This document shows, piece by piece, positions 25,419 through 59,262 of a stretch of 64,000 nucleotides of DNA. The stretch's first letter is position 1. Every line of letters begins with the position of its first letter. The translations under genes and the position numbers were made by a program. The DNA lies in assembly GCA_948144175.1 (NCBI GenBank), contig CANXME010000202.1, forward strand, positions 1,327,253 to 1,391,252. The letters run 5' to 3'. Source of the DNA: Closterium sp. NIES-65. Taxonomy: Eukaryota > Streptophyta > Zygnematophyceae > Desmidiales > Closteriaceae. Below the pieces are notes generated by a model. The model searched no databases. It was given only the letters and a program-made list of their open reading frames with translations, and had not been told where the DNA came from.

Positions 25419-25875
25419 TCATACCTGAAGGTGAGCCGCGTGGGATTTCTTCGAGATCCCACAAAGGTTGGTGTAGTGCTGAAACTTCAGACGTGATAGC
25501 TTCTTGGTAAGAAAATCCGCTGCCATTTTGCCAGTTGGGCAATACGCGAGTTTGACTCCGCCCTTGTCAATCTCGTCCTTGACGAAGAAGTAATGGAGTG
25601 CGATGTGCTTGGTACGGTTCACAGAGCCGGGCTTGTTTGCTATTTTTATCGCGCTCTGGTTATCGCAGAGTAACGTAAAATGCCCATTCATCGTCACTTT
25701 TGCTTTGTGCAAAAGCTCCATCAGGTGCAGTCCTCTGTGAACAGCTGCGCTGGCGGCAATGAACCAGCTTTGGCTGACAAAAGGGTGACGAGCTCCCGCT
25801 TTTGGGAGCTCCAGGAGATGAGTCCAGCAGGTTGAAGTTGAGCAGGTGTAGGTGCGGAGATAACTGCAGCAACGG
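25419..25875 (-). pseudogene. copia F RNase H, C-terminal part
   Basis: The translation contains GLISWSSQKRELVTLLSAKA, LLCDNQSAIKIANKPGSV, RTKHIALHYFFVKDEI and KMAADFLTKKL, the standard end of copia RNase H. A frame change occurs near 25740. The N-terminal continuation lies beyond the inserted family A LTR at 26985. Confidence 0.8.
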
Positions 25876-30884: not shown

Positions 30885-30895
30885 GGGAGCTTACG

Positions 30896-31102
30896 AACTA
30901 CACATAGTACCAACTATTTGGGTAAGTAACGCACTACACATAGTACCAAGTACTTGGGTAAGTAACACACTTACGCTTAGTACCATTTATAAGGATACAT
31001 CACGCATTTACAATTAGTGCCAACCATAAGGGTAAGTAGCACACTTACACTTAGTACCATTAATAAATCTATGTAACACACTTATACTCAGTATCACCTG
31101 TA
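30896..31102. repeat. 37-bp-unit satellite, left block
   Basis: Degenerate units contain TAGTACCAAC, then TAAGGGTAAGTAACGCACTTA. It is continuous with 38478-39760 once E2 is removed: CTGTA at 31098-31102 is repeated at 38478-38482. Confidence 0.85.
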
Positions 31103-32135: not shown

Positions 32136-34160
32136 ATGGCTACCCCCAGTATCCTCACCTTTGACGCTGAGGGCAGAGCCATCGACTTTGACGTGTGGGT
32201 AGACGACCTACTGCTTTTCCTACAGTGCGACAGAGCTGACGGCCTCTCTCTATTTGATCTCACTTCTGGTGCCTCTCCCGCCCCTGCTGCTACTGAGGAT
32301 GCCACTGTTCGCTCACAGTGGGCCACACGCGATGCTGCTGCACGTCTTGCTGTGCGTCGCCACCTCCCCCCCGCTGAGCGTGCACACTTTGGGTCGTACA
32401 AGAGTGCTCAGACCTTGTACGACGCCGTTATTGCACGCTACTCCACCCCTGCCACTACTGCACTGAGCCGCCTCATGCTACCGTACCTCTTTCCCGACCT
32501 TGCTGCTTTTGCCACAGTCGCTGACCTCATTACCCACCTGCGCACTAGTGACGCTCGCTTCCGCGCTGCACTTCCTGCTGAGTTCTGCGCCAAGAACCCC
32601 CCCCCCCACAGTACTTCACTCTCTACTACATTGTCACCCGCCTCCCTGACTCCCTTCGCGGAGTCAGGGACGACTTACTCTCAGTCTGCCCCACCACTCT
32701 CACTATTGAGATCCTTGAGAAGTCCCTCCTTGCAGCCGAGAAGAGCATTCTCGCTGTAGGGGCCTCTCGTGGTGACCCGCGCACCCCCATCTTTGAGGGG
32801 TGTTCCCCCTCCCCCCTCATGCCCTCTGTCGCCTCTGCTGCCACGGCCGACCTCGTTGGTTTTGAGTCGGTCGGTGCGGCGTCTGCCCCCAGCGGGAGAC
32901 GTCGCTCCGGCAAGGGCAAGGGGGGCAGGGGCGGTGGGGGAGGCGGCGGGGGCGGTGGAGGCGGCGGTGGAGGCAGCGGAGGAGGTGAGGGTGGTAGCGG
33001 GAGTGGTGGCGGGAGTGGAGGTGTCAGCGGCGGCAGTGGAGGCGGGGGTAGCAGCGGCGGTGGTGGTGGGGGTGGAGGCGGGGGCGGTGGTGGCGGCGGC
33101 GACGGTGGAGGTGGCGGTGGCAGCGTAGGTGCTGGCGGCGGCGGCGGAGGAGGCGGCGGAGGAGGCGGCGGAGGTCGTGGCTCGTCACGGAGGAGTGGCT
33201 CCGGTGGTGGTCAGCGCCAGCAGCAGCAGCGTGGTCCGGAGACCCTCTCCCCGCAGCAGCTCCGTGAGTGGTACACTGCACATCAGAGGGGTGGGGGTCC
33301 TGGTCCGTGCACCTACGTCCTGCGCACTGGCGACCGTGTGGGTGAGCAGTGTGGTGGTCCACACTCCTCCCAGCGCTGCTTCGGCCGCCTGACTGACGCT
33401 TGGCGCCGCCAGTTTCCTGATGCCTCTGAGATCCCTCGCTGGGACCAGCTGTCTAGGGCAGGAGTAGCTATCTTTGATCTTGACTTTGATGCTATTCTTC
33501 GTGCCATGTATGCTGTGACTATTAGTGAGGAGGGTGACTGTTACCGGTGTTTCCCTCCCGACCCAGGCATTGGTACTGCGGCTCTAGGTGCTGTTGCGGC
33601 TGCTGCTCTAGGTGCTGTTGAGGCTGTCGCTCTAGGTGCCAGTGAGTCTGTGTCCCCAGGTGCTGGTGAGTCTGCTCTCTCAGGTACAGCGTCGGCTCCG
33701 CCCTCTCTCACCTTCACTCTTGACTCAGGAGCGTGTCGCTCCTTCTTTCGAGACCGCACCACACTCACGCCGCTTAGTCGGCCTGTGGCAATCTCCCTGG
33801 CGGACCCCTCTGGGGGTCCTGTTCTGGCTCGCTACTCCACTGTCCTTCCGTGCCCTGCGGTCCCGTCTGGCTCCCTGTCCGGTCTCTACCTCCCCTCGTT
33901 CTCTACGAACTTGGTGGCGGGTGCTGACCTCCAGGATGCAGGGGTTGACCAGTTCACCCCTGCACGCCGACGAGACACCCACTGTACGGACGCGGACACG
34001 GGTCGACACTTGACCACGTTCACACGTGGGCCGGGGTCGAGCCTGTACACCCTCACTGTTCCGTCTCCTCCTCCTGCGTTTGGTCAGGTAGCTGCGTCGG
34101 GTCAGGTGTTTGCTGCAGCGTCCAGGTCTGGTCCTGAGTCTGCTCCCTGCTCGTGTCGCT
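32136..34160 (+). pseudogene. E2 gag and protease, one frameshift
   Basis: ATG at 32136 (MATPSILTFDAEGRAIDFDV). Gag runs to about 32600, where an 11-C run shifts frame; the correct frame is resumed by the reading that includes 32819-34160. Polyglycine linker at 32920-33180 (about 85 residues), then RQQQQRGPETLSPQQLREWY and a Cys/His motif C-x13-C-x3-H-x4-C (CTYVLRTGDRVGEQCGGPHS..RCF). The protease site is LDSGACRSFF (Asp at 33722) followed by the LADPSGGP and LYLPSFSTNLVAGADLQDAG blocks. Apart from the C-run it would be one open gag-PR frame, so the shift may be biological or a sequencing error. Confidence 0.85.
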
Positions 34161-36596
34161 ACTGTCCCACGAGACCCTCCTGTGGCACCACAGGATGGGT
34201 CACCCCTCCCTGCCTCGTCTCCGGGGCATGGCCTCTCGCCTTCTTGTCTCTGGTCTTCCCCGGTCCCTCCCTCCCCTTCCTCCGGGGCCTGGCCCTCCCT
34301 GTGTCCCCTGTGTCGAGGGTCGCCTGCGGGCTACCCCTCACTCCTCCCCGTTTCCTCCGACGGAGGCCCCGATGCAGACGCTTCACATGGACGTGTGGGG
34401 CCCAGCCCGCGTCCGTGGACAGGGTCACGAGCGCTACTTCCTGCTGGTGGTTGACGACTACTCGCGTTACACCACAGTCTTCCCCTTGCGCAGCAAGGGT
34501 GTGGTCACTGAGGTGTTGATCGACTGGATCCGCACAGCTCGTCTCCAGCTCAGGCGGAGCTTCGGCTCGGACTTTCCTGTTTTGCGTCTGCACTCGAACA
34601 AAGGCGGAGAGTTCTCCTCCGGCCTTCTGCGAGCCTACTGTCGTGCACGAGGCATCCGCCAGACCTTCACGCTTCCGGACTCTCCACAGCAGAATGGGAT
34701 TGCTGAGCGCCGCATCGGCATTGTCATGGACGTCGCCCGTACGTCCATGGTGCATGCGGCTGCCCCCCATTTTCTGTGGCCGTTTGCGGTGAGGTACGCC
34801 GCGCATCAGATCAACCTTCAGCCCAGGGTCTCCAGACCGGAGACCTCCCCAGCTCTGCTGTGGACGGGGAAGGTTGGCGATGCGTCGGCGTTCCGGGTCT
34901 GGGGATCTTGGGCGTTTGTCCGCGACTTGTCTGCGGACAAGCTGTCCCCTCGTGCTGCTCCTTGCGTCTTCCTGGGTTTCCCCCGTGACTCACCTGGGTG
35001 GCAGTTTTACCACCCCACCTCTTGTCGTGTTCTGTCCTCCCAGGACGTCACGTTCGACGAGTCGGTTCCCTTCTACCGGCTCTTCCCCTACCGCACTCCG
35101 TCCCTTCCCCCACCGCCCCTCTTCCTGGTCCCAGGTCCCCCCCCGGTAGACCCCCTCCCCCCTCAGGGTCCTGCCCCTTCAGGTGTGTCTCAGGTAGATG
35201 CGGTCGAGCTTGTTGAGGTCACTGGTGACTCTGGTGCTGCTGCGGGTGCGGAGCCTCAGGGTGCTGAGTCTGGGGGTGCTGAGCCTGGGGGTGCTGAGCC
35301 TGGGGGTGCTGGGCCTGGGGGTGCTGAGCCTGGGGGTGCTAAGCCTGGGGGTGTTGAGCCTGGGGGTGCTGAGCCTGGGGGTGCTGAGCCTGGGGGTACT
35401 GAGCCTGGGGGTGCTGAGCCTGGGGGTGCTGAGCCTAGGGGTACTGCGTCTGGGAGTGCTGCGCCTGCTGCTTCTGTTCCTGGTGGTTCGAGCCGCAAGC
35501 CGCTCTCTCCTCTGGAGCTGCGTGAGTGGTTTGCCTGTGGAGGCGCGCTGCTGGAGCTGGGGGTGCTGCGGGTGCTGGAGGTTCTGTTGCTGCCGAGGGA
35601 GCGGGTACCACGGAACCTGGAGGTGCTCGTACTGAGAGTACTGGAGCTGCCGGGCCCGGGGGTGCCTCTGGAGCTGGAGCTGCTGCGGGTGCTTGTGCTG
35701 AGACTACGATTGTCGGTCCTGCTGAGGGTACTTCTGGCGCTGCTGGAGGTGCTGGAGTTGGAGCTGCTACTAGTACTGGTGCTGCCTCTCGAGGTGTTGG
35801 TGCTGTCCCTGCTGTCTCTGGCGATGCTGCGCGGCCTTGGCCGTACTTCGTTCCGCTCCTTCAGCAGGTTCTTGGTCTCCCGCCTTCCACTGGTCCTTCC
35901 CCTCCCGTAGAGTGTCCACAGCCTGTTCCGTCACAGTCACAGTTACAGCCCGCCTCTCCCCTGCCTTCTCCTTCTCCCTACACTGGTCCTACTGGAGGTC
36001 TTGCTGAGCGTCGTGAGCCTGCGTCCCGCCCTGCGTCGCCAGTCCGAGCTGCTCGCCCTAGTGGTCGCGGTTCGCGTCAGCGTCCTCCTCCTGACCCTGG
36101 CACACACCAGATGTCTCTGCGTCCGTCCACTGCTCCTCTGCGTGCCCCTTTGCCTTCTCCTCCTGAGTCTTCTCTTCCTACTCTTGCCGACCCGGAGTCA
36201 GACTCTCGCCGTGCTGCCAGTCCTACTGTCACGCGTCTTCTTGCTTCTCTTGTCACTGACCCTTCCTTTGAGTCCGCTGCTGCGTCCGCCCTAGTTGCGG
36301 AGCTGGTCGACTTTGCTGCTGCGTGTCGTTTAGACTACGCTGCCAGTCTTGTTGCTCAGTCTGCTGAGTCTGCGTCTGCTGCGTCTGCGTCTGCCTGTCC
36401 TCCGTCCGTCGGGGGTGACTGTGCTCTTGGCACGGACGTCCTTGAGGACAGGCAGGAGGAGTTCCAGTGCTTTGCCGCCGCTTTGCCTCATCTCGTGTCC
36501 ATGCTTGTTGCCCCTGAGGGAGACCCGGATGCTCTAGACATCCCGACCCCACGCTCTTACGCAGAGGCGATGGCCGGTCCCTACTCCTCTCAGTAG
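34161..36596 (+). pseudogene. E2 integrase, EPGGA linker, RT N-terminal part; catalytic Asp lost
   Basis: The HHCC finger (HHRMGHP ... CVPCVEG) leads to the integrase core with MDVWGP (Asp 34390). The second catalytic residue reads HSNKGGEF: AAC at 34597-34599 where E1 has GAC. The Glu block is NGIAERR. TFDESVPFYRLFPYRTPS, the EPGGA repeats (35250-35450) and the Ser/Pro linker follow. The frame shifts near 35530, relative to E1, and continues to TAG 36594 (TGG in E1). Even without stops this integrase should be inactive. Confidence 0.9.
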
Positions 36597-38118
36597 CAGT
36601 CAGCCATGGACGTAGAGATGGCTTCCTGGAAGTCCACAGGCACCTACGTTGACGAGGTACCCCCTCCTGGGGCGAACATTGTCAGTGGCATGTGGATTTT
36701 CAGGGTGAAGCGGCCGCCGGGTTCTCCGCCTCTTCAAGGCGCGCTACGTGGCTCGTGGCTTCAGTCAGCGACAGGGAGTTGACTTCTTTCAGACCTTCTC
36801 CCCGACCCCGAAGATGACCACTCTTCGGGTTCTGCTGCACGTCGCTGCTCAGCGTGACTACAAGCTACACTCTCTTGACTTCAGCTCTGCTTTCTTGCAG
36901 GGTTGCCAGCACGAGGAGATCTGGCTGCGCCGCCCTCCTGGTTTCACTGGGTCGTTCCCTCCTGGTACTCAGTGGAGCCTCCGGCGGCCAGTCTACGGTC
37001 TCCACCAGGCGCCGCGCGAGTGGCACGACACACTGAGGACTACACTTGCGGCTCTTGGGTTTGCTCCTTCTACTGCTGACCCTTCGCTGTTTCTGCGCAC
37101 CGACACCTCGCTGCCGCCGTTCTACATCCTCGTGTACGTCGACGACTTGGTCTTTGCCACTGCGGACACTGCCGCACTCGCCCACGTGAAGTCCGAGCTG
37201 CAGAAGAGACACACGTGCACAGACCTGGGTGAACTGACAAGCTATCTTGGCTTGCGGATCACCCGGGATAGAGCACGCCGCACCATTACCCTGACTCAGT
37301 CACACATGGTGCAGCAGGTCCTTCAGCGCTTCGGCTTCACGTACTCCTCGCCTCAGTCCACTCCTCTGCCTACGGGACACTCGCTCTCAGCTCTGCCTTC
37401 GGATGAGTCCGTAGAGTCGAGTGGTCCGTATCCAGAGCTTGTGGGCTGCCTCATGTAGCTGATGACCTGCACTCGACCTGACCTCGCATACCCTCTCAGC
37501 ATCTTAGCACGCTATGTCGCTCCCGGCCGTCACCGGAAGGAGCACATGGATGCAGCTAAGAGGGTGTTGCGCTACTTGTGCAGTACGTCAGGCATGGGGC
37601 TAGTGCTTGGAGGGCGTGAGCGGCCTGTGCTCACTGGGCACTCAGACGCTTCTTGGGCTGACGACCAGGCTACTCAGAGGTCGTCTCAGGGTTACACCTT
37701 CAGTCTTGGCTCTGGCTCTGTCTCTTGGCGCTCTACTCGCTCTTCTTCGGTTCTCAGCTCCAGTTGTGAGGCTGAGATCTACGCCACGGCCATGGCTGCC
37801 CAGGAGCTTCGCTGGCTCACCTATCTGCTGACTGACCTTGGAGAGCGGCCTCGTTCTCCTCCAGTGCTGTACGTCGACAACAAGGCAACCATTTCCTTGT
37901 GTCAGGAGCACAGACTGGAGCACAGGACGAAGCACATTGCTCTGCGCTACTTCCTTGCTCGAGAGCTGCAGCAGCGTGGTCAGCTTCGCCTGCGTTTCGT
38001 GGCCACTGAGGCCAACACTGCTGATGTGTTCACCAAGGCACTTCCGCCTCGTGACCATCAGCGCTTTTGCACTCTGCTAGGCCTTGTGCCCACTGGGCCT
38101 CACTTGCTTACCTCTTGA
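36597..38118 (+). pseudogene. E2 reverse transcriptase and RNase H
   Basis: RT restarts after TAG 36594, loses two bases near 36732 (CCGCCTCTTCAAG against CCGCCTGTCTTCAAG in E1) and continues with ARGFSQRQGVDFFQTFSPTP, LDFSSAFLQG, YGLHQAPREWHD and LVYVDDLVFA (37135-37146). TAG at 37456 replaces Tyr of LMYLMTCTRPDL. RNase H follows with SDASWADD, EAEIYATAM, YVDNKATISL and NTADVFTKAL, ending at TGA 38116. Confidence 0.9.
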
Positions 38119-38477: not shown

Positions 38478-39760
38478 CTGTAAGGGTATAAATACACTTA
38501 TACTTAGTACCAACCATAATAGTAAGTGATGCAATTACTCTCAGTACCTACTATGAAGGTAAATAATACACTTACACTTAGTACAAAACTATAAGGATAT
38601 GTAACGTAGTTACACTTAGTACCAACCAAGTTGGTAAGTAACGCACTCACACTTAGTTCCAACTATAAGGGCAAGTAACGCACTTATACGCAGTACCAAC
38701 TCCCGGGGTAAGTAAACTTGGTTACTCTTTGTACCAACCATATGGGTAAATAACGCACTTATACTTAGTACCAGCTATAAGGATATGAAATATAGTTACG
38801 CTTAGTACCAACTATAAGGTTAAATAACACCTTTATTTTTAGTACCAACATAAGGGTATGTAACGCATTTACTCTTAGTACTTACTACAAGGGTAAGTAA
38901 CGGAGTTAATCTTAGTACCAACCAAGTTGGTAAGTAACCCACTTATACTTATTACCAACTAAAAGGGTAAATAACGCACTTACTCTTTGTAACATCTGCA
39001 AAGGTAAATTACGCACTTACACAAAGTTCGAACCACAAATTCATGTAACGCAATTACACCTAGTACCAACCAAATAGATATGTAACACAGTTACATTTAG
39101 TACCAACTATATGGGTAAGTGATACACTTACATCTAGAACCAACTACAAGGGTATGTAACGCACTTATACTTAGTACCAACTACAAGGGAAAGTAACGCA
39201 CGTACTTATAGTACCAACCATATAGGAAAGTAACGTACTTAGTCTTAATAGCAACCAAGTTGGTAAGAAACATACTCACGCTTAGTACCAACTATGAAGT
39301 TAAACATCGGCTTTACTCTTAGTACCAATACGAAGGTAAGTAACACATTTAGTCTTAGTACCATAAGGCTAAGTAATGCACTTATAGTTGGTACTAACTG
39401 TAAAGGTAAGTAACGTACTTGCTCTTAGTATCAACTATCAGGATAAGTAACGCACTTATTTTTGGTACCAACCAAGTAGGTAAATAACATACATTCGTTT
39501 AGTACCAACTACTAGGTTCAATAACGCCTTTACACTTAGTACCAACATAAGGGTAAATAACGCATTTATTCTTAGAACCAACTACAAGGGTACATAATGT
39601 ACTTACCCTTAGTACCAACTACAAGGGTATGCAACGCAGCCTATCTTAGTACCAACCAAGTTGGTAAGTAACGCACTTATACTTAGTAACAATTGCAAGG
39701 GTAAGTCATGCACTTAATCATTGTAACAACAAGGGCAAGTCATGTCACACTTGTATGAAT
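38478..39760. repeat. 37-bp-unit satellite, main block, about 34 units
   Basis: Each unit has TAGTACCAAC, a variable TATAAGGGTAAGTAACG core and CACTTACACT, with about 10-25% divergence between neighbours and units of 30-40 bp. No unit is repeated exactly. It codes for nothing. The same satellite is at 30896-31102, 44899-45331 and, inverted, 63051-63915. Confidence 0.9.
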
Positions 39761-40439
39761 GTTATAGGGGAGCGTGAAAACGCATATCAGGTGTATCGAT
39801 TGTACATTTTGTACATAGTGAGTGAAGAGGCAAGCGAGTATGGAAGACGAAGTGTCAGGAGGCGTTTCAAGGGATGAGTAGTGATAGGAGGAACTAACAC
39901 CTACTGACGCGAGGGGTGGAGGAGCTACATGGGTTTTGGATGGGGTAGCACTTACGTAAGCACATGAGGACGGACTGAAACATCACAGTACTCGGCAGCG
40001 GCATTGGGAAGATGGGTGGTGAAACTGTAGTTAGAGGGGTGTTTGCGGGCATGCATGTTTGTTTTCCTTTTTGTTTCCAGGTTCGCACTGACGAGCCAGT
40101 TGGAACAGCACACTGCCAGCTGGAGGCAAGGTGGTTAGAGACAGGAGGGGTGGCAAGAAGCATCACTGATGTAAACCTGCTCAAAGGCAGTCCTATCTGC
40201 TGGTAACTAGGCTATAGATGACGGGACATGCATTAGGAGGTGGCAATGGTGGAAGAATAGGCGGATTCTTGCTCTTTGAACCTCATTGCTTGTGTGTTTC
40301 CTTTCAACACGATATTCTTGCAGTGAACCGAGCAAATACTGACCCTACGAAGATAAGGCAAGCTAAGAATGAAGAGAGGTGTGAGGTTATGTGACAGAGC
40401 ACAACGCTCATCACTTGCAAGCAATTAGCATCGGAGGGA
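39761..40439. other. untranslated leader or flank of the gypsy remnant
   Basis: Non-coding. A phrase GTGGAGGAGCT.CATGGGTTTTG occurs twice (39915-39938 and 40505-40528), suggesting an old internal duplication. TTTGTTTCCAG at about 40069-40079 looks like a splice-acceptor-type tract, but I cannot assign exons. Confidence 0.35.
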
Positions 40440-41416
40440 ATGCCCACGAGATCCGAAGTAGGCTACGCAGCGAAGGAAGTAGTGGAAGAAACAGGAACGA
40501 TGGATGGTGGAGGAGCTGCATGGGTTTTGTATGTTTTTCTCCGCGGGTTGGCGAACACCCTGACAAGAGAAGCTGAATTTTATGACCGCATCTGTAGGAG
40601 GGAGTTACTAGAATGGGCGGCAAGAGGAAGGCCATCAGCGTAGTTCTTAGAAATGCTTAGGGAGCGGTTCCCACAGCAAACCCCAAGCGTGTCGTGGCAT
40701 TCCAGGAAATCAGGAGGAGGCCAGGAAAATCACGTCTAGCTTACTATGGGCACCTCATTGAGCTGGGGGAGGACATGAGCTGTTTTGATCAAGGCCGACT
40801 CATAAGCAAATTCTGCGATCTAGGCATGGGCGCGACATTGAAGGAAGCTTACGAGGCAGCTACACGGGTGGAGATGGGGAGGTGACTGTTTGAGGTTTAG
40901 CACACGGCGGCAGAGCGCCAAAGGCCAGCCTAGAGTGCGGCACCAGTAGAGAAAGATCGACCGTCGAGGGGACCCTTGGATGTGCGGAAGTGTCACAACT
41001 GTGGCGAGACGGGGCATCTAAGGTGCGACTGTCATAATCCCTCGGTGTGTTTTATCTATGGCTAGGAGGATTAGCTAAGGCACGACTGCTTGGAGGCTCC
41101 GTTGTATGGAAAATGTGGCCGGAAAGGGCAGTCGTACCGGGACTACTATTTGCGAAAGGTGGAAGGTAGAGGAGAAAACCGGGAGAGAAACGAGATGGCC
41201 GAGATGCGGGCACAAATCGAGAGGTCACGGTTGGACCAGGAGGGGCGTGATTCAGGTAGTGAAAGGAAGCTGGCCATGGTGGCGAGGGAAGAGGAGAAAG
41301 AAAGCAGTGAAGAAAAGTTCTGCCTGATGGCGAGATCGGCACATGACATTGAAGAGCTGGGTCTAAGGCCAAGGGTGAGGTATTCGAGGCCGCGGATTGA
41401 AGAAAGGTGGAAATAA
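40440..41416 (+). pseudogene. gypsy-type gag with three CCHC knuckles
   Basis: Capsid part in shifting frames: AEFYDRICRRELLEWAARGR, FLEMLRERFPQQTPS, RPGKSRLAYYGHLIELGEDM and ATLKEAYEAATRVEM. The first knuckle is intact at about 40990-41031 (CHNCGETGHLRCDC, C-x2-C-x4-H-x4-C). The second (CFIYG...LRHDC) has lost a Cys and carries two TAG codons. The third (YGKCGRKGQSYRDYY) has lost two ligands. A charged coiled region (RNEMAEMRAQIERSRLDQEG) follows to 41416. Stops include TAG at about 40641 and TGA at about 40882. Confidence 0.7.
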
Positions 41417-41529
41417 GGACCGAGGAGAACGGCAGAAGATTAAGAGGAGCAGCAGCCGCCGCGTCGCCACCCGCTAGAGCGACTCAGCTACGTAGCATCA
41501 GCCCGGGTGGCCGAAAAAGGGTATATCAC

Positions 41530-41880
41530 GGTGAAGGCATATCGGCGACTATAGAAACTAGGGCGAATCCCGTGTTCATTGGAAGGAGGCTTGCGGAGCA
41601 ATAGTAGCTGTACAAGCTAGAGCGATAGATAGAAGATATTGCTCCTGATGACAGCAGAAGGCGGGACCACAAAGTGGATGCCAAAGACGAGGGGCACGGT
41701 GGAGATCATGCTATGGCAGGGAAGCCGGAAGGAGTGTTTGGTGAAGCTACAATGCGGAATATCACCGTCGGAAGACTACGACCTGCTGCTAGGAGTGGAG
41801 TTTGTGTACAGCATTGACGCGACCATCTGCATGTGGAAGGAAAACTCACATGACGAGTCATTGACTGGGAGAAGAACTGC
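41530..41880 (+). pseudogene. retroviral-type aspartic protease remnant
   Basis: ATIETRANPVFIGRRLAEQ at about 41545-41602 resembles the active-site region of gypsy proteases (D-T/S-G-A-x-x-x-F-I), with the DTGA core mutated to ETRA. About 55 residues later DYDLLLGVEFVYSIDATI matches the conserved block that follows in this protease (usually D.ILG.DWL). Two stops separate the two halves. The function is lost. Confidence 0.55.
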
Positions 41881-42052
41881 CCGATGGTGTTGCTACTCGT
41901 GAGATTTATTTGCAAGGAACCACGTGAGGCATATCAAGCGGAGATCAAGACGCTGGAGGAGGAGTTGGGCATACTGAGTTGGGAGAAAGTGAAAGAGGAG
42001 AGAAGGCTCCGCGGGTGGCACCGGCAGTAGTGGGGTGTTTCAAAAACCGATA

Positions 42053-42501
42053 GTGTTTCTAGAACTGTTTGGTGGCATCAACACGGGGCTGACAGCAGTG
42101 CTGAAGGCAGGTCTCAGGGTAGAGAAGTACCTTCATATGGAAAATGTTGAGGCAAAAGTCGAATAGCATGGCACCACCTGAAGAATTTAGAGGAGAGGTA
42201 CCCGTCCCTGCTGTATGAGGGAGCGGTGGACAAGTGAGTGGAGTGGACCTATCATAGGGTGGAGAATGTTTGGGAAGAGGCGCTAGCCCACTGGGGCCAC
42301 ATCGACTTGGTTGTTGCGGGGTGGGAGTGCCAAGGAATGTCACGAGCAGGGGAAGGCAAGGGGATGGAGGATCCCCGAAGCAGGTTGTTTTGGGAGCTCA
42401 TGCACATCCTGAAGCTGGTCAAGAGCAAGCAAGGAGAGGTGGCTTACATACTGGAGAACGTAAACACTAGAGATGACATGAAGGATGATGTTGCGGTTAA
42501 A
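42053..42501 (+). pseudogene. C5 cytosine-DNA methyltransferase domain (Dnmt3-like motifs), truncated
   Basis: Motif I is ELFGGINTGLTAVLKAGLRV (42059-42118), the AdoMet-binding F-x-G-x-G loop. After a frameshift near 42160 and a TGA at 42235, the frame holds WGHIDLVVAGWECQG, with the catalytic-loop Cys at 42328-42330 (the usual Pro-Cys has Glu-Cys here), then GMEDPRSRLFWELMHILKL, and motif VI AYILENV with its Glu at 42454-42456. Spacing I-IV (about 87 residues) and IV-VI (42 residues) suits a C5 methyltransferase. The G.edprS.LFwE phrase between IV and VI resembles the Dnmt3 class. Target-recognition domain and motifs VIII-X are missing; a family A LTR starts at 42502. Present as a pseudogene only. 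Confidence 0.7.
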
Positions 42502-43120
42502 ACTTGTACAACGGGAGCTAGTCTACAGGATAGGCATGGCTGTGAGGGTGATCTTCGCGTTCCTTAATTGTTTGCTTGTCTTCACACGACTTGCACATTC
42601 ATGGGAAAATCTAGTAAGAGTTTCATTAGCAAAGAGTGACAACAATGGTCAACAATGCAAAGCAATAATGGACTACATCAGATGCTAGCAAGCATGCAGA
42701 CCGACTGCTAGCGCCGCGCGGTCGACCCATTCTAGCACTGCAAGATCCACAGTGGTCCCGAAGTGCAAATTCGCGCTTTGTCAACGCTGCAAGTCAACGG
42801 CCTGCCAACGCTGCACCAAGGCGGCTGTACAGCGTTGCATTCATATGACAGCAATGCACCTGCTTCGCAAGTGATGGCAGCTGGTTGGCGTGCTGTGCCT
42901 CATCATGTAGTTGACCATGTGCCCACGATTGCACCTGATCCTCCATGTCAACCTCGGGATACCACACCGAGGTCGGCTTCGCAAGAATCTCGTGGGCGAC
43001 TCTCGCGCACCCCATGCAGGTCGACCTGCGTGCCAAAGTCGGTGTCACCCACCGCAGAAGATCGGCTGCACCTCCCATACATCTGAAACACAACTAACAA
43101 CTCCCCTTCCGTGTTCACGC
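42502..43120 (-). repeat. 3' LTR of A2, short variant
   Basis: The left end ACAACGGGAGCTAGTCTACAGG and the following 180 bp match the start of the solo LTR at 25876. The right end has ACAACTCCCC-type sequence near 43097-43110, preceded on the minus strand by a purine-rich tract. It is about 0.6 kb, so it is shorter than other A LTRs. Confidence 0.65.
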
Positions 43121-44000: not shown

Positions 44001-44803
44001 TCAATTTTGCAGCTGCCATGCTTTTTCTACTACGAAATGGCCTGAGGTAACCCCATCGTGTGCCTCCTGTAGTAACAGCTCCCTTAGTAAAGTGTAGCCC
44101 GGAGCCCAGATGCGATCGGTGCCTGCTTTTACATAATAAACCCCCTTTGCTGCTACGAACTGCTGCGAGTTTCCTCCGGTGAAGGATGAGTCGTGGGTAA
44201 ATAGTCCCGTGAGCAGTGGGCTGGTCTGGGTGAGTAGTATAGCATGGATTTGGGCAGTGCGGTGGGTCAGTGCATCGGTGATGTTTGATGCCCCCTTTTG
44301 TAGGTGACCGTTATAGTGGAAGTTTGACTCGAAGAAATAGAGTTGGCGAACCTGTCGTTGATTGAGGTGTGGTTGTGCGTGAATGGGCGGTGTGGGTGGG
44401 CATTGTGCAGTACGGGTGGTGAACAAAGAAAATCTTTTAGGGCAGAAAAGCCAGCATGTCATTCCCCCCCCCCCCCCCCCCGTCCCCCCCACGTAAAAGC
44501 AACCCCCTCCCGCAGCAAATCCGTTAGTGGGGCTGTTAACCATGCCATGACGGGGACAAACGGACGCACATAATTAACGAACCCTAAAAAACTCTGTAGC
44601 TCGGTGATATTTGTCAGGGGGTGCCAAGCTTTTACCATGTCCAGCTTCTTTCGGTCGATCTCAGCTCCAGCCTCTGAAAAAACAAGCCCCAAAAATTCTA
44701 ACCTATCCTTAAAAAACTCGCTTTTGGAACCCTTAGTCACCGACAAGGCTCTATAATTTTGCAAGGCTCTTTCCTCAGGCCAAATTTCCCTGTGAACTAG
44801 CAA
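44001..44803 (-). pseudogene. Ty3/gypsy RT thumb, RNase H and integrase zinc-finger remnant
   Basis: Minus translation: RLEFLGLVFSEAGAEIDRKK, FLGFVNYVRPFVPVMAWLTA and PLTDLLREGVAFTW (RT connection, gypsy type). After a frame change at an 18-C run (44464-44481) it reads FFESNFHYNGHLQKGASNIT (the RNase H exit) and GVYYVKAG...LRELLLQEAHDGVTSGHF (integrase H2C2 finger). It ends at about 44001 where family A sequence begins. It could be the same gypsy family as 40440-42501 but lies in the opposite orientation. Confidence 0.8.
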
Positions 44804-44898
44804 GCAGTGTGTGCACTAGGAAACGACTTGTGAACGAACGCAAATATCACATGAGCACCCGTGCCTAGCCCGTAGTCTAGCTCTTGTTGTGGTAGTTA
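44804..44898 (-). repeat. terminal fragment of a family A LTR
   Basis: GTGAACTAGCAAGCAGTGTG, GAGCACCCGTGCCTAGCCCG and TAGTCTAGCTCTTGTTG match the LTR end seen at 57505-57580 and 59229-59262. It is followed by TGGTAGTTATC, the same flank as in A1 and A5. Confidence 0.7.
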
Positions 44899-45331
44899 TC
44901 ACTCCATTACCAACTACAAGGGTAAGCAACATACGTATTATTAGTACCAAAAAATTGGGTAAGTTACACACGTACACTTGGTACCGACTATAAGGATAAG
45001 AAAAGCACCTTATTCTTAGTACCAATTAAAAGGTTCAGTAACACACATACGCTTTCAGCCAACTAAAAGGTAAATAACGCTCTTACACATAGTACCAACC
45101 AAAAGGGTAAATAACCTACTTAGATACAGTACATAGTAGAAAGGTATTTAACACACTTATACTTAGTATCAAATATATGTGTAAGTATCACACCTACACT
45201 TTAGTACCAACTGAAAGGGTCGGTACACACTTATACTTAGTAGCAACAGTAATGCACTTACTCTTAGTACCATTCATCTAGGTAAGTAACGCATAGTACC
45301 AACAATAATCTAAATATCGTACGTACACTAG
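44899..45331. repeat. 37-bp-unit satellite, third block
   Basis: About 12 degenerate units, same consensus words as 38478-39760. It is bounded by a family A LTR end on the left and a family E LTR on the right. Confidence 0.85.
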
Positions 45332-45984: not shown

Positions 45985-46800
45985 TCAAGAAGTGAGCAAG
46001 TGAGGCCAAGTAGGCACAAGACCTAGCATCGTACAGAAGCGCTGATGATCACAAGGGGGAAGTGCCTTGGTAAATATATCGGCAGTGTTGGCCTCAGAGG
46101 CCACGTAAGCAAGGCGCAGCTGGCCATGCTGCTGCAGCTCATGAGCAAGGAAGTAGCGAAGAGCAATGTGATTCGTTCTGTGCTCCAGTCTGTGCTCCCG
46201 ACACAAGGCCAGCATGGCCTTGTTGTTTACGTACAAAAATGGAGGAGAACGAGGCAGCTCTCCTAGGTCAGTCAGCAGGTAGGTGGGCCAGCGTAGCTCC
46301 TGTGCAGCCATGGCCCCCGCGAAGATCTCAGCCTCACAACTGGAGCCGAGAACAGAAGACGAACGGATAGACCGCCACGAAACAGAGCCGGAACCAAGGC
46401 TGAAGGTGTAACCCTGTGACGACCGCTGCGTAGCCTGGTCATCAGCCAAAGAAGCGTCTGCGTGACCTATGAGGACCACTCGACATCGCCCTCCAAGCAC
46501 TAGCCCCATGCCCGACGTACTGCACAAGTAGCGCAACATAGCGTGCGAGAATGTTTAAGAGGGTATGCAAGGTCAGGTCGAGTGCAGGTCATCAGGTACA
46601 TGAGGCAGCCAAGAAGCTCTCGGTACGGGCCACTCGGCTCTACGGACTCATCCGAAGGCAGAGCTGAGAGGGAGTGGCGAGTAGACAGAGGAGTGGCCTG
46701 AGGCGATGAGTACGTGAAGTCGAAGCGCTGAAGGACCTACTGCACCATGTGTGAGTGAGTCAGGGTAATGGTGCACTGTGCTCTGTCCCGGGTGATCTGC
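45985..46800 (-). pseudogene. E3 RT end and RNase H
   Basis: RNase H: VLIGHADASLADDQATQRSS, CEAEIFAGAMAAQELRW, YVNNKAMLALC (Asp to Asn), HRTNHIALRYF and NTADIFTKAL, ending HLLTS at TGA 45985. Upstream, RT has a TAG at 46737-46739 replacing a Gln (HMVQ.VLQRF) and a frame break near 46550. About 550 bp of RT (up to the GELRSYLG block) is deleted at 46830. Confidence 0.8.
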
Positions 46801-46826
46801 AAGCCAAGGTAGCTGCGCAGTTCACG

Positions 46827-48237
46827 TCAAGGTAATGGTGCACTGTGCTCTGTGCACGTGTGTCTCTTCTGTAGCTCAGACTTCACGTAGGCGAGGCTAG
46901 CAGTGTCAGCAGAGGAGTAGGGACCCTTGATCGCCTCAGCGTACGATCGAGGAGTCGGGATGTCTGGTGCATCCGGGTCTCCCGCAGGGGCAATCAGCGT
47001 GGACACGAGATGAGGCAAAGCAGCAGCAAAACACTAGAACTCCTCCTGCCTGTCCTCAAGGACGTCCGTGCTAAGAGCACACTCACCCTTGACCGACGGA
47101 GGACAGACAGACTCAGACTCACCAACGAGACTAGTGGCGTAGTCTAGATGACAGCGAGCAGCAAAGTCGACAAGCTCAGCAACTAAGGCAGACACAGCAC
47201 TGGACTCAAAGGAAGGGTCAGTAACAAGAGTGGCCAGGAGACGCAAGACAGTAGGACTGGTAGCACGAAGAGAGTCAGACTCCGGGTCAGCAAGAGCAGG
47301 AAGCAAGGACTCTGGAGGAGACGGCAACGGGACACGCAGAGGAGCAGTGGAAGGACACAGTGCCATCTGGTGTGTGCCTGGGACTGCAGGAGGACGCGGA
47401 CACAGAGCACGACTACTAGTGCGAGCAGCACAAACACGCAACGCAGGACGAGACTCAGGCTCACGACTGTCAGCAAGACCTCCAGTAGGACCAGTGTAGG
47501 GAGAAATAGCATGTAGGGGGGAGGCGGGCTGTAACTGTGACCGCGACTGGACAGGCTGTAGAGACTCTAAGGGAAGAGCAGGACCCGTAGAGGGCGGGAG
47601 ACCAAGAACCTGCTCAAGGAGCGGAACGAAGTACGGCCGCTGCCGCGTTGTGCCTCCAAAACCAGCAGGGACAGCACCAATGCCCCCAGCGGCAGCACAA
47701 GCGCTAGCAGCACCTCCAGCTCCAACAGCGCCAACTAGAGCACCCTTAGAAGCACCAGTGCCAGCAGCACCACCAGCGCCAACACCCCCAGCAGCTCCAG
47801 CTCCAGCAGCACCAACTCCAGCAGGACCGTCCGCTTCAGGACCGCCAGCAGCTCTAGCAGTACCTCAAGCAGGACTAACTCCAGTAGCACGGCTCCAGCG
47901 CCGGGTGAACCACTCGCGCAGCTCCTGCGGAGAGAGTAGCTCCCGCCTTGACGAAGCACCGCCAAAGGCCACACGAGCAGACCCAGCACCCGCACGCTCC
48001 GCATCCCCAGGCTCCGTACCCCCAGGCTCAGCACCCCCAGGCTCCGCACCCCCAGCCTCAGCACCCCCAGGCTCAGCACCCCTAGACTCAGCACCCGCAG
48101 GCTCCGCACCCCCTGACTCAGCACTCCCAGACCCGGCACCCGCAGGCTTAGCGCCCCTAGCAGGACCAGAGTCAACAGCTACCTCGACAGGCTCGACTGC
48201 GTCTCCGTGGAACACAACTGACGGGGCAGAACCTTGA
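46827..48237 (-). pseudogene. E3 integrase-RT linker and RT N-terminus
   Basis: PHLVSTLIAPAGDPDAPDIP and RSYAEAIKGPYS (RT entry), preceded by VLEDRQEEF ending in TAG 47034-47036 (Gln in sisters), a Ser/Pro-rich stretch and the EPGGA-type repeats at about 47990-48170. Several frame changes. The RT N-terminal region joins directly to SADTASLAYVKSELQKRHTC, an internal deletion. Confidence 0.75.
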
Positions 48238-48299
48238 GGGGGGAGAGGGTCTACCGGAAGAGGACCTTGCGGCGGGGGCAGAGCGGCGGCGGGGGGAGG

Positions 48300-49356
48300 G
48301 GCGCAGTGCGGTAGGGGAAGAGACGGTAGTAAGGCACCGACTAGTCAAAGGTGACGTCCTGGGAGGACAGAACATGGCGCGAGGTGGGGTGGTAAAACTG
48401 CCAACCAAGCGCGTCAGGGGGGGAGCCAATGAAGTCGCAAGGAACAGCACGGGGGGGACAGCTTGTTCGCAGACAATTCGCAGACAAACGCCCGAGATCC
48501 CCTGACCTGAAACGCAGACGCATCGCCAACCTTCCCCGTCCACCACAAAGTGGGGGAGGTCTCTGGCAAGGAGACCCGAGTCTGAAGGTTGAGCTGATGT
48601 GCTGCATACTAAACCGCAAACGGCCACAGAAAATGGGGAGCAGCCGCATGGATCATGAACGTACGAGCAACGTCCATGACGAAGCCAATGCGGCGCTCAG
48701 CAATCCCATTTTGCTATGGAGAGGCCGGAAGCGTGAACGTCTAGCGGATGCCCTGTGCACGACAGAAGGCTCCCAGACGGGTAGAGGAAAACTCCCCGCC
48801 TTTGTCAGAGTGCAGACGCAGAACAGAAAGTCCGAGCCCAATCTCTGTCTGAGCTGGAGAAGAGCTGCGCGGATCCTGTCGATCAACACCTCAGTAAAGT
48901 CACCCTTGCTGCGGAAGTAGTAACACCGTGGTGTAACGCGAGTAGTCATCAACCACCAACAGGAAGTAACGCTCGTGACCCTGGCCACGGACGCAGGCGG
49001 GGCCCCACACGTCCATGTGAAGAGTCTGCAGGGGAGCCTCTGTCGGAGGAAACTCGGGGGAGTGACGGGCGGCGCGCTGCCGCCCCTCGACACAGGGAAC
49101 GCAAGTAGGGGCAGGCCCCGGAGGGAGGGGAGGGAGGGACCGGGGGAGACCAGAGACAAGGACACGGGAGGCCATGCCTCGGAGACGAGGCAGGGAGGGG
49201 TGACCAAGGCGGTGGTGCCTAAGGAGAGTCTGGTAGGACAGGAGATGACACGAGCAGGGAGCAGACTCAGAACCAGACCTGGACGCTGCAGCAAACACCT
49301 GACTCGACGCAGCTACCTGACTAGACTTAGCAACTGGAGGAGAATCAGAAGTAGCA
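48300..49356 (-). pseudogene. E3 integrase
   Basis: HHRLGHPSLPRLRGMASRVL ... CVPCVEG, MDVWGPACVRGQGHERYFLL, VVDDYSRYTTV. A frameshift follows at about 48905-48925, then TFDESVPYY-type sequence near 48330. Homology stops at about 49353, in the serine-rich protease-integrase spacer. Confidence 0.8.
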
Positions 49357-50860
49357 AGCTGTCTCCTCGCGCTGCTCCCTGCGTCTTCCTGGGGTTCCCC
49401 CCCGACGCCCCTGGGTGGCAGTTCTACCACCCCACCTCTCGACGTGTTCTGTCCTCCCAGGACGTCACGTTCGACGAGTCGGTACCCTACTACCGCCTCT
49501 TCCCCTACCGCACTCCGTCCCTTCCCCCGCCCCCGCTCTTCTTGGTACCAGGTCCCCCCCCGGTAGACCCCCTCCCCCCTCAGGGTCCTGCCCCTTCAGG
49601 TGTGTCCCAGGTAGACGCGGTCGAGCCTGTTGAGGTCACTGGTGACTCTGGTGCTGCTGCGGGTGCTGAGCCAGGGGGTGCTGGGACTGGAGGTGCTGAG
49701 CCTGGGGGTGTTGAGCCTGGGGGTGCTGAGCCTGGGGGTGCTGAGCCTGGGGGTACAGAGTCTGGGGGTGCTGAGCCTAGGGGTGCTGAGCCTGGGGGTA
49801 CTGAGCCTGGGGATACTGAGCCTAGGGGTGCTGAGCCTGGGGGTGCTGAGATTGAGGGTGCTCCGCCTGGAGGTGCTTCGTCTCGCCGAGAGCCACTCTC
49901 CCCACGGGAGCTGCGTGAGTGGTTTGCCCGGCGCTGGAGGCGTGCTGCTCGTGCTGGAGGTTCTTCGGCTGCGGAGGGTACTGCTGCCACGGGTCCCGGA
50001 GGTGCTCGTACTGGTGGTACTGGAGCTGCTGGACCTGAGGGTTCTTCTGGGACTGGTACTGCTGAGGGTGTTGGCGCTGAGACTACCACTAGCAGTCCGG
50101 CTAGCGGTGCTCCTGGGGCTGCTGGGGGTTCTGGGGATACTGGAGGTGCTGCTGGGGGTTCTGGAGCTGCTGGAGGTGCTGCTGGAGGTACTGCTGGAGC
50201 GGGTACTCCTGCTAGAGGTACTGTTGCTGTCCCTGCTGTTCCTGGCGTCGCCACGCGGCCTCGACCGTACTTTGTTCCCCTCCTGCAGCAGGTTCTTGGT
50301 CTTACACCTTCTCCTGGTCCTCCTCCTCCTCCCTTAGAGCGTCCACAGCCTGTCCAGTCACAGATACAGCTTGCCTCCCCTTTGCCTGCTCCTTCTCCCT
50401 ACGCTGGTCCGACTGGAGGTCTTACTGAGCGTCGTGAGCCTGCGTCTCGTCCTGCGTCACCTGTTCGTACTGCGCGCACCAGTGGTCGCGGTTTGCGTCA
50501 GCGTCCTCCTCTTGTCCCTAGCACGCACCGGATGTCTCTGCGTCCGTCCACTGCTCCTCTACGTGCCCCTTTGCCTTCTTCTCCTGCTTCCTCTCTTCCT
50601 GCTCTTGCCGACCCGGAGTCGGACTCTCTCGTGCTGCCAATCCTTTTGTCACGCGTCTTCTTGCAACTGCTGTCACTTACCCTTCTTTCGAGTCTTCTAC
50701 TGCGTCTGCCCTTGTCAGTGAGCTCGTCGACTTTGCTGCGCGCTGTCGTCTAGACTACGCTGCTAGTCTTGTCGCTGAGTCTGAGTCTGCCTGTTCTCCG
50801 TCCGTCGGGGGTGAGTGTGCCCTTGGCACGGACGTCCTTGAGGACAGGCAGGAGGAGTTG
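49357..50860 (+). pseudogene. E4 integrase C-terminus and linker
   Basis: PGWQFYHPTSRRVLSSQDVT, DESVPYYRLFPYRTPS, EPGGA repeats (49660-49865), REPLSPRELREWFARRWRRA and a Gly/Ala-rich then Ser/Pro-rich linker. A one-base shift near 50628 (GACTCTCTCGTG against GACTCTCGCCGTG in E1) throws the frame off. The catalytic integrase core is absent. Confidence 0.85.
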
Positions 50861-52408
50861 CAGTGTCTGGCCGCCGCTTCACCTCATCTCGCGTCTGTAC
50901 TGCTCGCCCCTGAGGGAGACCCGGATGCACTAGACATCCCGACTCCGCGCTCTTACGCGGAGGCGATAGAGGGTCCTTACTCCTCTCAGTGGCAGGCAGC
51001 TATGGATGCAGAGATGGCTTCCTGGAAGTCCACAAGCACCTACGTTGACGCTGTTCCACCTCCTGTGGCGAACATAGTAAGTGGCATGTGGATCTTCAGG
51101 GTGAAGCGGCCGCCGGGTTCTCCGCCTGTCTTCAAGGCGCACCATGACTACGAGCTGCACTCTCTCGACTTCAGCACTACTTTCTTGCAGGGCAGCCTGC
51201 ACGAGGAGATCTGGCTGCGTCGCCCACCTGGCTTCACTGGGTCTTTCCCTCCTGGTACCCAGTGGAGTCTTCGGCGTCCAGTCTACGGTCTCGGCCAGGC
51301 GCCACGTGAGTGGCACGACACACTGAGGACTACGCTGGCGGCACTCGGGTTTGCTCCTTCTACTGCCGACCCGTCGCTGTTTCTGCGCACTGACCCCTCA
51401 CTGCCGCCGTTCTACATCCTCCTGTACGTCGACGACTTGGTCTTTGCCACAGCTGACACTGCTGGACTCGCCTACGTGAAGTCCGAGCTGCAGAAGAGAC
51501 ACACGTGCACTGACTTGGGTGAACTGCGCAGCTACCTTGGCTTGCAGATCACCCGGGACAGAGCACGCGGCACCATTACCCTGACTCAGTCACACATGGT
51601 GCAGCAGGTCCTTTAGCGCTTCCGCTTCAAGTACTCCTCGCCTCAGGCCACTCCTCTGCCTACTCGCCACTCGCTCTCAGCTCTGCCTTCGGATGAGTCC
51701 GTAGAGTCGAGTGGCTCGTACCCAGAGCTTGTTGGCTGCCTCATGTACCTGATGACCTGCACACGACCTGACCTTGCATACCCTCTTAGCATTCTTGCAC
51801 GCTATGTTGCTCCTGGGAGACACCGACCAGAGCACATGGCTGCATCGAAGAGGGTGTTGCGCTACTTGTGCAGTACGTCGGGCATGGGGCTAGAGCTTGG
51901 AGGGCGCAGTCCAGTGGTCCTCACTGGGCACGCGGACGCTTCTTGGGCTGACGACCAGGCTACGCAGCGGTTGTCACAGGGTTACCCCTTCATCCTTGGT
52001 TCTGGCTCTGTTTCGTGGCGGGCTACCCGCTCGTCTTCTGTTCTCGGCTCCAGTTGTGAGGCTGAGATCTACGCCGGGGCTATGGCTGCACAGGAGTTAC
52101 GCTGGCTCACCTACCTGCTGACCGACCTTGGAGAGCCGCCTCGTTCTCCTCCAGTCCTGTACGTAGACAACAAGGCCATGCTGGCCTTGTGTCGAGAGCA
52201 GCGACTGGAGCACAGGACAAAGCACATTGCTCTCCGCTACTTTCTTGCTCGTGAGCTACAGCAGCGTGGACAGTTGCGACTTGCGTACGTGGCCTCTAAG
52301 GCCAACAATGCTGATGTCTTCACCAAGGCACTTGCGCCTTGTGATCATCAGCGTTGCTGCACGCAGCTGGGTCTTGTGCCAGTCTTGCCTCACTTGCTCA
52401 CTTCTTGA
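50861..52408 (+). pseudogene. E4 reverse transcriptase (internal deletion) and RNase H
   Basis: YAEAIEGPYSSQWQAAMDAE, MWIFRVKRPPGSPPVFKA and then directly HHDYELHSLDFSTTFLQGSL: an in-frame deletion of about 37 residues at 51142 removes the RYVARGF...FSPTPKM block of RT. It continues with YGLGQAPREWHDTL, LLYVDDLVFA, SYLGLQITRDRARG and TAG 51614 (CAG in sisters). RNase H: LTGHADASWADDQ, CEAEIYAGAMAAQELRW, YVDNKAMLAL and ANNADVFTKAL, ending at TGA 52406. Confidence 0.85.
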
Positions 52409-52597
52409 CCTTGCTTGTACCTTCACCTATATATATTCCTGCTCTTGCTTGCTTGACTCTTGTATATCTCTATATATGATCTTGCATGTGAACTGGCCTT
52501 CTGGCCTTTGAACTTGTGCTCGGAATGTGTGGTGACTTTGTGATCCACCCTGAGCTTTGCTTTGCTTTGCTTGACTGGTCTTGTGACCCCTTGTTCT

Positions 52598-52620
52598 CCC
52601 CCACTTTGCCTATGGGGGTG
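52598..52620 (+). promoter_or_regulatory. hairpin and polypurine tract before E4 3' LTR
   Basis: CCCCCA-CTTTGCCTA-TGGGGG, then TG and the LTR. Confidence 0.65.
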
Positions 52621-52747
52621 TGTCAGAACATTATAGCTTTCTTATTTTTGTAGGCCATAGTGGGGTATCCCATAGGGGGTACAACACAATTAAGGTTTCC
52701 AATTTGTACTCACTTCGTTCATAGTCATTCTCGTTCTTTCTTTCACA
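52621..52747 (+). repeat. 3' LTR of E4, type 2, 127 bp
   Basis: TGTCAGAACATTATAGC ... TTCTTTCACA, closest to the LTRs at 17377 and 62920. Confidence 0.85.
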
Positions 52748-52968
52748 CCCTCTCCATGTGCATCCCGAGGTAGTACTTTACCTCCCCAAGGTTTTTGCAC
52801 TTTAAGTTCTCCATCAGTTGCTGCTGCGCATTATGAACTCCTTCATGCTGCTGCTAAAGAGAAGAATGTTGTCCACGTAGACCAGAAACAGCACCAGCTT
52901 CTCCCCCTCCCCCTTGAGAAAGAGGCTCTCATCACGGCTGCTGATCTTGAATCCCATCTCTTTTAAAA
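52748..52968 (-). pseudogene. unrelated copia RT scrap
   Basis: The minus translation has FKISSRDESLFLKGEGEKL, LFLVYVDNILLFSSS (catalytic YVDD changed to YVDN) and further pieces CKNLGEVKYYLG in another frame. It is not family E; it resembles family A-type or another copia lineage. Confidence 0.65.
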
Positions 52969-54009
52969 CACCTGGGTGAACTGCGCAGCTACCTTGGCTT
53001 GCAGATCACCCGGGACAGAGCACAGCGCACCATTACCCTGACTCAGTCACACATGGTGCAGCCGGTCCTTCAGCGCTTCGACTTCACGTACTCCTCGCCT
53101 CAGGCCACTCCTCTGTCTACTCGCCACTCGCTCTCAGCTCTGCCTTCGGATGAGTTCGTAGAGCCGAGTGGCCCGTACCCAGAGCTTGGTGGCTGCCTCA
53201 TGTACCTGATGACCTACACTCGACCTGACCTTGCATACCCTCTTTGCATCTTGGCACGCTATGTTGCTCCTTGGAGACACCGACCAGAGCACATGGCTGC
53301 AGCGAAGAGGGTGTTGCGCTACTTGTGCAATACCCTCGATGGTCCTCACAAGTCATGCAGACGCTTCTTGGGCTGACGACCAGGCTACGCAGCGGTCGTC
53401 ACAGGGTTACACCTTCAGCCTTGGTTCCGGCTCTGTTTCGTGGCTGTCCACCCGCTCGTCTTCTATTCTCGGCTCCAGCTGTGAGGCTGAGATCTACGCG
53501 GGGGCCATGGCTGCATGGGAGCTATGCTGGATCACCTACCTGCTGACTGACCTGGGAGAGCCGCCTCGTTCTCCTCCAATTCTGTATGTAGACAACAAGG
53601 CCATGCTAGCCTTGTGTCGGGAGCACAGACTGGAGCACAGAACAAAGCACATTGCTCCTGGTCAGCTGCAGCAGCGTGGTCAGCTGCGCCTTGCTTACGT
53701 GGCCTCTCAGGCCAACACTGCTGATATCTTTACCAAGGCACTTCCACCTTGTGATCATCAGCGCTGCTGTAGGATGCTGGGTCTTGTGCCTACTTGGCCT
53801 CACTTGCTCACTTCTTGACCTTGCTTGTACTGTGATCTATCTATACATGCACTTGCTTGTTTAGCTTTATATATGATCTTGCATGTGAATTGGCCTTGTG
53901 GCCTTGAGCTTGTGCTCAGAATGTGTGGTGACGTTGTGATCCACCCTGAGTCTGCTTTGCTTTGCTTGACTGGTCTTGTGACCTCTTGTTCTCCCCCACT
54001 TTGCCTATA
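52969..54009 (+). mobile_element. family E copy E5: RT end, RNase H, 3' UTR
   Basis: It starts within the RT thumb (LGELRSYLGLQITRDRAQRT). RNase H: about 30 codons are lost at 53330 (CNT then DGPHKSCRRF in a shifted frame), then ADDQATQRSSQGYTFSLGSG, CEAEIYAGAMAAWELCW, YVDNKAMLAL and ANTADIFTKAL, with TGA at 53816. The 3' UTR runs to the first arm of the hairpin (CCCCCACTTTGCCTATA), where it is joined tail-to-tail to E6. Confidence 0.8.
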
Positions 54010-57580: not shown

Positions 57581-57582
57581 TG

Positions 57583-59228: not shown

Positions 59229-59262
59229 ACCCCTGCCTAGCCCGTAGTCTAGCTCCCGTTGT
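59229..59262 (+). repeat. end of the A5 5' LTR
   Basis: GCCTAGCCCGTAGTCTAGCT and CCCGTTGTA complete the LTR begun at 56518; TAGTTATCTCC follows, as in A1. Confidence 0.7.

Follow-up and report, generated by a model that had tools for sequence, protein, structure and literature searches.

A decayed Gypsy-type retrotransposon segment in Closterium belongs to a family carrying a DNMT3-like cytosine methyltransferase with a Glu-Cys motif IV loop

We analysed a 64,000-nucleotide stretch of contig CANXME010000202.1 from Closterium sp. NIES-65 (the window), in which positions 40440-42500 of the plus strand are a decayed gag-protease-methyltransferase segment, the 5' portion of a defunct Ty3/Gypsy-type polyprotein gene. 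Better preserved relatives encode a DNMT3-like C5 cytosine methyltransferase within the same polyprotein, and most of them have glutamate where proline usually precedes the catalytic cysteine. We think it probable that the segment is a dead copy from a DNMT3-bearing Gypsy family whose live copies methylate their own complementary DNA (cDNA), although that such elements are self-methylating is something we infer from their sequences.

On the plus strand, an MPTRS gag start and the body of gag are followed by a CCHC knuckle, then by a damaged protease and finally by the first half of a C5 cytosine methyltransferase. The segment aligns in pieces, at 53-78% identity, with two Closterium proteins, P0002 and P0004 (the 16 proteins collected here are P0001 to P0016). 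The gag-pol reading frame starts at 40440-40496 (MPTRSEVGYAAKEVVEETG) with the same MPTRS as P0004; residues ~20-148 of P0004 have no clear counterpart in the window between 40496 and 40536. A gag remnant in more than one frame follows at 40536-40885, with 67% tblastn identity to P0004 over 55 columns and then 55-56% on to ~41500. A zinc knuckle of the form CX2CX4HX4C lies at 40991-41032 (zf-CCHC, E = 0.0026, 18.2 bits, below the Pfam cut-off of 20.8), and knuckles that by eye are degraded follow up to ~41160. The protease remnant at 41520-41845 consists of a damaged active-site segment, with IETRA at ~41551 against IDTGA in P0002, and an LLG-type C-terminal part (41717-41845) that is 74% identical to P0004 over 43 amino acids. 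Beyond the sub-threshold knuckle, the gag and protease pieces of the window that were run against Pfam gave no match of their own and were recognised through P0002 and P0004.

The methyltransferase lies on the same strand in two stretches, with motif I in a different frame from motifs IV and VI. The motif I segment at 42035-42154, with ELFGGINTG at 42062-42088, is 77.5% identical over 40 amino acids to P0004 and P0002. The stretch at 42160-42500, with GWECQG (motif IV) at 42319-42336 and ILENV (motif VI) at 42448-42462, is 71.8% identical over 110 amino acids to P0005. The piece 42238-42567 matches Pfam DNA_methylase (PF00145; E = 2.1e-10, 41 bits, cut-off 22), and among solved structures it comes closest to DNMT3B chains (E = 3e-6). 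Taken alone, the 39-residue motif I piece had no Pfam match, and its PDB match, DNMT3C, had E = 0.077. The copy is broken by seven in-frame stops in 40670-41503, one in 42163-42492 and several frame changes. Because of the PF00145 and DNMT3B matches and the two stretches found with tblastn of P0004 against the window (2.6e-86 and 1.2e-65), and given collinear homologues, we rejected a chance reading of the motifs. The initial annotation, made from the letters alone, had proposed the knuckle, the protease and motifs I, IV and VI on one strand in this order; all were located, the profile search for a C5 methyltransferase came out significant, and the motif spacing (about 86 codons from I to IV and about 43 from IV to VI) agrees with that of P0004.

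A protein search with the window methyltransferase piece returned a single protein, P0001 (Closterium sp. NIES-54), and a longer query from the same region returned P0002 to P0004 (Closterium NIES-53/54) at 72-74% identity. Searching with the methyltransferase domain of P0004 gave 14 proteins, including P0004 and P0003; this search admitted only proteins of ~1060-3374 amino acids, so that shorter relatives were missed. Nine of the 16 collected proteins are named as Closterium (two from NIES-53, six from NIES-54 and one from NIES-68). P0002 to P0005 are near-copies, 95-96% identical in the pairs compared (P0004 with P0002, and P0003 and P0005 with P0004). The records have gaps: motif I is missing from P0003 and P0005 and the C-terminal motifs from P0001 and P0002, and the records of P0006 and P0002 are without reverse transcriptase (RT).

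P0004 (1928 amino acids, Closterium sp. NIES-53) holds in a single chain, and in this order, CCHC knuckles, DNA_methylase, RVT_1, RNase H, Integrase_H2C2 and rve, with the methyltransferase at ~617-935 and RT at 1091-1241. Its Pol thus contains the Gypsy set of RT, RNase H, H2C2 and rve, whereas the window copy ends before RT. The protease of P0004 lacks its active-site half. CCHC knuckles, protease and methyltransferase are found together in P0002, P0006 and P0007, the gag-asp_proteas match lying below the cut-off in P0002 (23.8 of 28.2 bits), where three knuckle stretches scored, and above it in P0006 and P0007. P0008 has a knuckle, a weak protease, methyltransferase and RT in that order, and the model of P0007 stops within a partial RT that the methyltransferase precedes. 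P0003 and P0005 carry the methyltransferase plus RT to integrase behind a copia-like N-terminus; together with P0009 and P0011 they look like copia-element fusions. The DNMT domain thus shares an open reading frame with RT in P0004 and also in P0003, P0005 and P0008. The full order gag(CCHC)-protease-DNMT3-like methyltransferase-RT-RNase H-integrase is pieced together from P0002, P0006, P0007 and P0004, since every one of the proteins examined has at least one domain damaged or missing. A structure prediction for P0006 from a five-row alignment was of poor quality, with a mean pLDDT of 44.8.

The initial annotation had taken the segment for a decayed member of a gypsy methyltransferase family, with the enzyme after the protease and probably before RT. 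Both proposals are borne out: the homologues do have gag and RT beside the methyltransferase in one reading frame, and the enzyme precedes RT in P0003, P0004, P0005, P0008 and, with its partial RT, P0007. Decayed elements are crowded together in this region, a setting in which a host DNMT3 fragment and a Gypsy fragment might come to adjoin by chance or through an assembly error. We regard this as hardly credible, the gag-protease-linker-methyltransferase order being collinear with P0002 and P0004, each of which is one reading frame in the public record.

Within pol the methyltransferase occupies one of two places: either it precedes RT, or, as in P0010, P0012, P0014 and P0015, it lies with RNase H on one side and the integrase part on the other. 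P0013 has methyltransferase, RT and RNase H, and P0016 methyltransferase and then RT. At E 0.01, Pfam gave no DNA_methylase line in P0010, P0014 or P0015, whose methyltransferase rests on homology to P0004 (5e-44, 3e-34 and 1e-23, respectively) and on aligned motifs. We built midpoint-rooted trees from 11 methyltransferase rows and from 8 and 10 RT rows. The 10-row RT tree groups P0003, P0004, P0007, P0008 and P0013, in which the methyltransferase comes before RT (100/98), P0007 and P0008 being represented by little RT. In the methyltransferase tree the elements with the enzyme after RNase H (P0010, P0012, P0014 and P0015) form a group (99/98), which P0013 joins (84/90). Separately, we noted that P0010 and P0015 are long Gypsy polyproteins with a PHD finger behind the integrase, and that a C-terminal stretch of P0010 with LDPFAGEG resembles, by eye, a second methyltransferase. 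P0016, a Pro-Cys methyltransferase followed by a divergent RT, has a long branch in the trees and may be a DIRS-type or other element.

We assessed the class of the enzyme by running a profile built from nine methyltransferase domains against solved structures. The best match was DNMT3A (1.8e-26), followed by DNMT3B/3C; lower matches were DRM-type chains (1.3e-13 to 4.6e-11), HhaI (2.2e-9) and DNMT2-type chains (3.2e-4 and 5.5e-4). Among the DRM-type matches, chains 4onj and 4onq, which are labelled DNA methyltransferase and which we take to be tobacco DRM, gave 1.3e-13 and 2.9e-13, and DRM2 gave 4.4e-11. The DNMT3A match takes in both ends of the domain, at motifs I and X, as well as its middle, all in the classical order, and the family methyltransferase is therefore DNMT3-like and not DRM-like. 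Motifs I to X of P0004 also stand in classical order, and the DRM-type rearrangement is absent. All nine profile domains have the motif VI glutamate and the two motif VIII arginines, and eight have the cysteine. Animal DNMT3A/B catalytic domains thus share with the family the motif order, the catalytic cysteine, the motif VI glutamate and the motif VIII arginines; they differ in having a Pro-Cys-type motif IV (GGSPC in the aligned DNMT3A chain) and no gag/pol context. Plant DRM is the next eukaryotic match after DNMT3; its match is limited to profile positions 4 to ~133, and its motif order is rearranged (PMC5890265, available text), unlike that of the family.

The motif IV loop of the window copy, GWECQG, departs from the Pro-Cys of DNMT3, in a motif whose conserved triad is given as PCQ in the available text of PMC6709928. 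Motif IV could be compared in 15 of the 16 proteins, P0011 being excluded because its record lacks the region. The Glu-Cys that the initial annotation had flagged is common to 12 of these 15 retroelement methyltransferases (P0001 to P0010, P0014 and P0015); the others have Pro-Cys (P0012 and P0016) or Pro-Tyr (P0013). The 12 cases are not all independent, because P0002 to P0005 are near-copies, and Glu-Cys occurs in three Closterium groups (P0002-P0005; P0006/P0007; P0001/P0009) plus P0008, P0010, P0014 and P0015. We rejected the idea that Glu-Cys reflects decay of the window copy, since better preserved relatives have it in common.

As controls we used 80 viral and 42 prokaryotic relatives, obtained by scanning contigs with patterns open to either glutamate or proline; proline was present in 122/122 and glutamate in 0/122. 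For the viral controls we took the best 80 of 295 confirmed loci, among them several near-identical ones, from a scan that also used a motif VIII pattern. The prokaryotic ones are all 42 loci confirmed among at least 593 stretches; in the pattern that found them, C or Y had to be preceded by E or P, which left no room for other letters. A DNA pattern for VAGWECQ hit 13 stretches in viral contigs, none of them a methyltransferase by reading of the open reading frames, and the Pro form of the pattern hit six, with four of the six contigs among the viral methyltransferase loci. Because glutamate is found in 12 of 15 elements and in none of the controls, Glu-Cys appears to be a long-standing feature of the lineage, in which either proline was regained at least once or Glu-Cys arose twice.

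The identities among distant element pairs are 33-53% for the methyltransferase, 28-44% for gag and 31-71% for RT, the last over the short part compared, and the methyltransferase exceeds gag in all eight distant pairs for which both were compared. The methyltransferase values would fit long retention; protein identity is no test of selection.

Several observations weigh against an active enzyme that methylates element cDNA. Because Pro-Cys is the rule elsewhere, as in every control, Glu-Cys may weaken or change catalysis. Some copies look inactive, because P0013 has lost the cysteine (GWPYQG) and P0012 lacks a clear motif I; P0013 also has EHV for ENV. RT is better kept than the methyltransferase among closer relatives (71% against 53% for P0004-P0007 and 63% against 43% for P0004-P0008), and in the close pair P0006-P0007 gag and methyltransferase are equally conserved (73.0% and 72.0%). 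In yeast, no methylation was detected with the domain of KnitGypsy-Dnmt3, a Gypsy element of the alga Klebsormidium nitens; human DNMT3B behaved likewise, and the authors call the result inconclusive (PMC5890265, available text).

An alternative is that the domain serves to bind DNA or cofactor and not to catalyse, whether as a DNMT3L-like helper or as a decoy for host DNMTs; Glu-Cys would then be a sign of lost or weakened catalysis. The prevalence of glutamate, the tyrosine of P0013 and the silence of the Klebsormidium domain speak for this alternative, which we nonetheless consider unlikely: the cysteine is kept in 14 of 15 elements, more often than one would expect of a dead domain, and in domains such as those of P0004, P0006, P0007 and P0008 motifs I, VI, VIII and X are preserved too. 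Because the cysteine, the motif VI glutamate and the motif VIII arginines are kept, the glutamate before the catalytic cysteine probably tunes rather than abolishes the predicted enzyme.

Under the favoured reading of a DNMT3-bearing family that methylates its own cDNA, live copies would make the methyltransferase as part of Gag-Pol, and the enzyme would accompany RT into the virus-like particle or the pre-integration complex. There, either ahead of integration or during it, the double-stranded cDNA of the element itself would receive 5-methylcytosine, most likely in the CG context, and new copies would arrive already marked like silent host repeats. Such pre-marking could shield them from defences that target unmethylated foreign DNA, or it could lessen the burden on the host. 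The substrate might instead be RNA, either the genomic RNA of the element or its tRNA primer, in that the enzyme would share its particle with RNA; a role on RNA has been raised for the dinoflagellate element SymbioLINE-Dnmt (PMC5890265, available text). The profile is far closer to DNMT3A than to DNMT2-type chains, which makes this alternative improbable.

The kind of element, a Gypsy retrotransposon that has captured DNMT3, is already known. According to the available text of PMC5890265 (de Mendoza et al. 2018), DNMT3 occurs in Gypsy elements of K. nitens and DNMTs occur in dinoflagellate elements; the K. nitens Gypsy DNMT is under purifying selection, with Ka/Ks below 0.2, and the Gypsy-encoded DNMT3 elements have, in the legend of its Fig. 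4, a repeat arrangement like that of DIRS. KnitGypsy-Dnmt3 resembles the Closterium family in placing a DNMT3-related, unrearranged C5 methyltransferase in the Gypsy Pol of a streptophyte alga; its host belongs to another class of alga, and the comparison is with its published description. SymbioDIRS-Dnmt3 and SymbioLINE-Dnmt of dinoflagellates are likewise retroelement-encoded DNMTs, and the DNMT3-type domains of the DIRS elements methylate CG in yeast; these are DIRS and LINE elements, not Gypsy, and the acquisitions are called independent (PMC5890265). In the parts available, PMC12344493 describes DNMT3 in long terminal repeat (LTR; written Copia) and DIRS elements of streptophytes and dinoflagellates, with no occurrence of Closterium, and PMC6338049 discusses methylase-bearing retrotransposons, for which antiviral roles are proposed.

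The words retrotransposon and methyltransferase are absent from the main text of PMC10407611, on these Closterium genomes, and the available text of PMC12730594, PMC9998398, PMC3934875 and PMC13419823 holds nothing on Closterium methyltransferase elements. In our searches of openly accessible main texts we found no report of such elements, nor any of a Glu-Cys loop. The Closterium members, the lineage-wide Glu-Cys and the two methyltransferase placements in pol look new, set beside Klebsormidium by description only.

Similarity of the window copy to the family ends at 42492, inside the methyltransferase, and another repeat starts at 42501. No LTR, primer site or element ends were found for the copy, and TGGTATCAGAGC had no match inside 39740-42500 with up to 2 mismatches. 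The segment 42501-44900 (no strand assigned) is bounded by inverted repeat copies, with inverted ends at 42508-42610 and 44890-44784 that are 68% identical, and is perhaps a foldback or terminal inverted repeat-type element; no clear target duplication was seen around it by eye. The consensus of the bounding repeat's end is approximately ATAACTACTACAACGGGAGCTAGACTACGGGCTAGGCACGG, and four more partial copies lie at 3571, 25859-25870, 57462-57584 and 59229-59272 (44 bases). Within the segment, on the minus strand, are gypsy-type RT/H2C2 fragments that come from a different element (Integrase_H2C2, E = 0.0039, below cut-off). We considered these fragments, at 44001-44815, as the 3' half of the methyltransferase element and rejected them, as they are on the wrong strand and only 29-32% identical to the family RT region. 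Upstream of the element, and not assigned to it, is a 37-bp tandem repeat at 38495-39744 (no strand), with an array of approximately the same unit at 44908-45246; this diverged repeat (unit with CTTAGTACCAACTA) has like arrays at 30893-31084 and 63056-63781, four places in all. Ty1/copia-type stretches that match Closterium P0005 and P0011 occur on both strands at 17152-24566, 32136-38043, 46060-49877 and 50624-53743.

The window copy itself is a fossil. Its better preserved relatives could be used at the protein level to ask why a transposon would methylate its own DNA. What makes the family worth testing as a variant of the known elements is chiefly its Glu-Cys loop, along with its host group and its two placements. 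We put forward only tentatively, as a possible but less probable extension, that it represents a widespread algal Gypsy lineage with an active DNMT3-type enzyme, a Glu-Cys loop fixed long ago, two places in pol, a distinct methylation pattern or substrate and a benefit to the element. The loop would be a natural, lineage-wide exchange of the usual proline beside the nucleophile of a C5 methyltransferase, and one that can be assayed directly.
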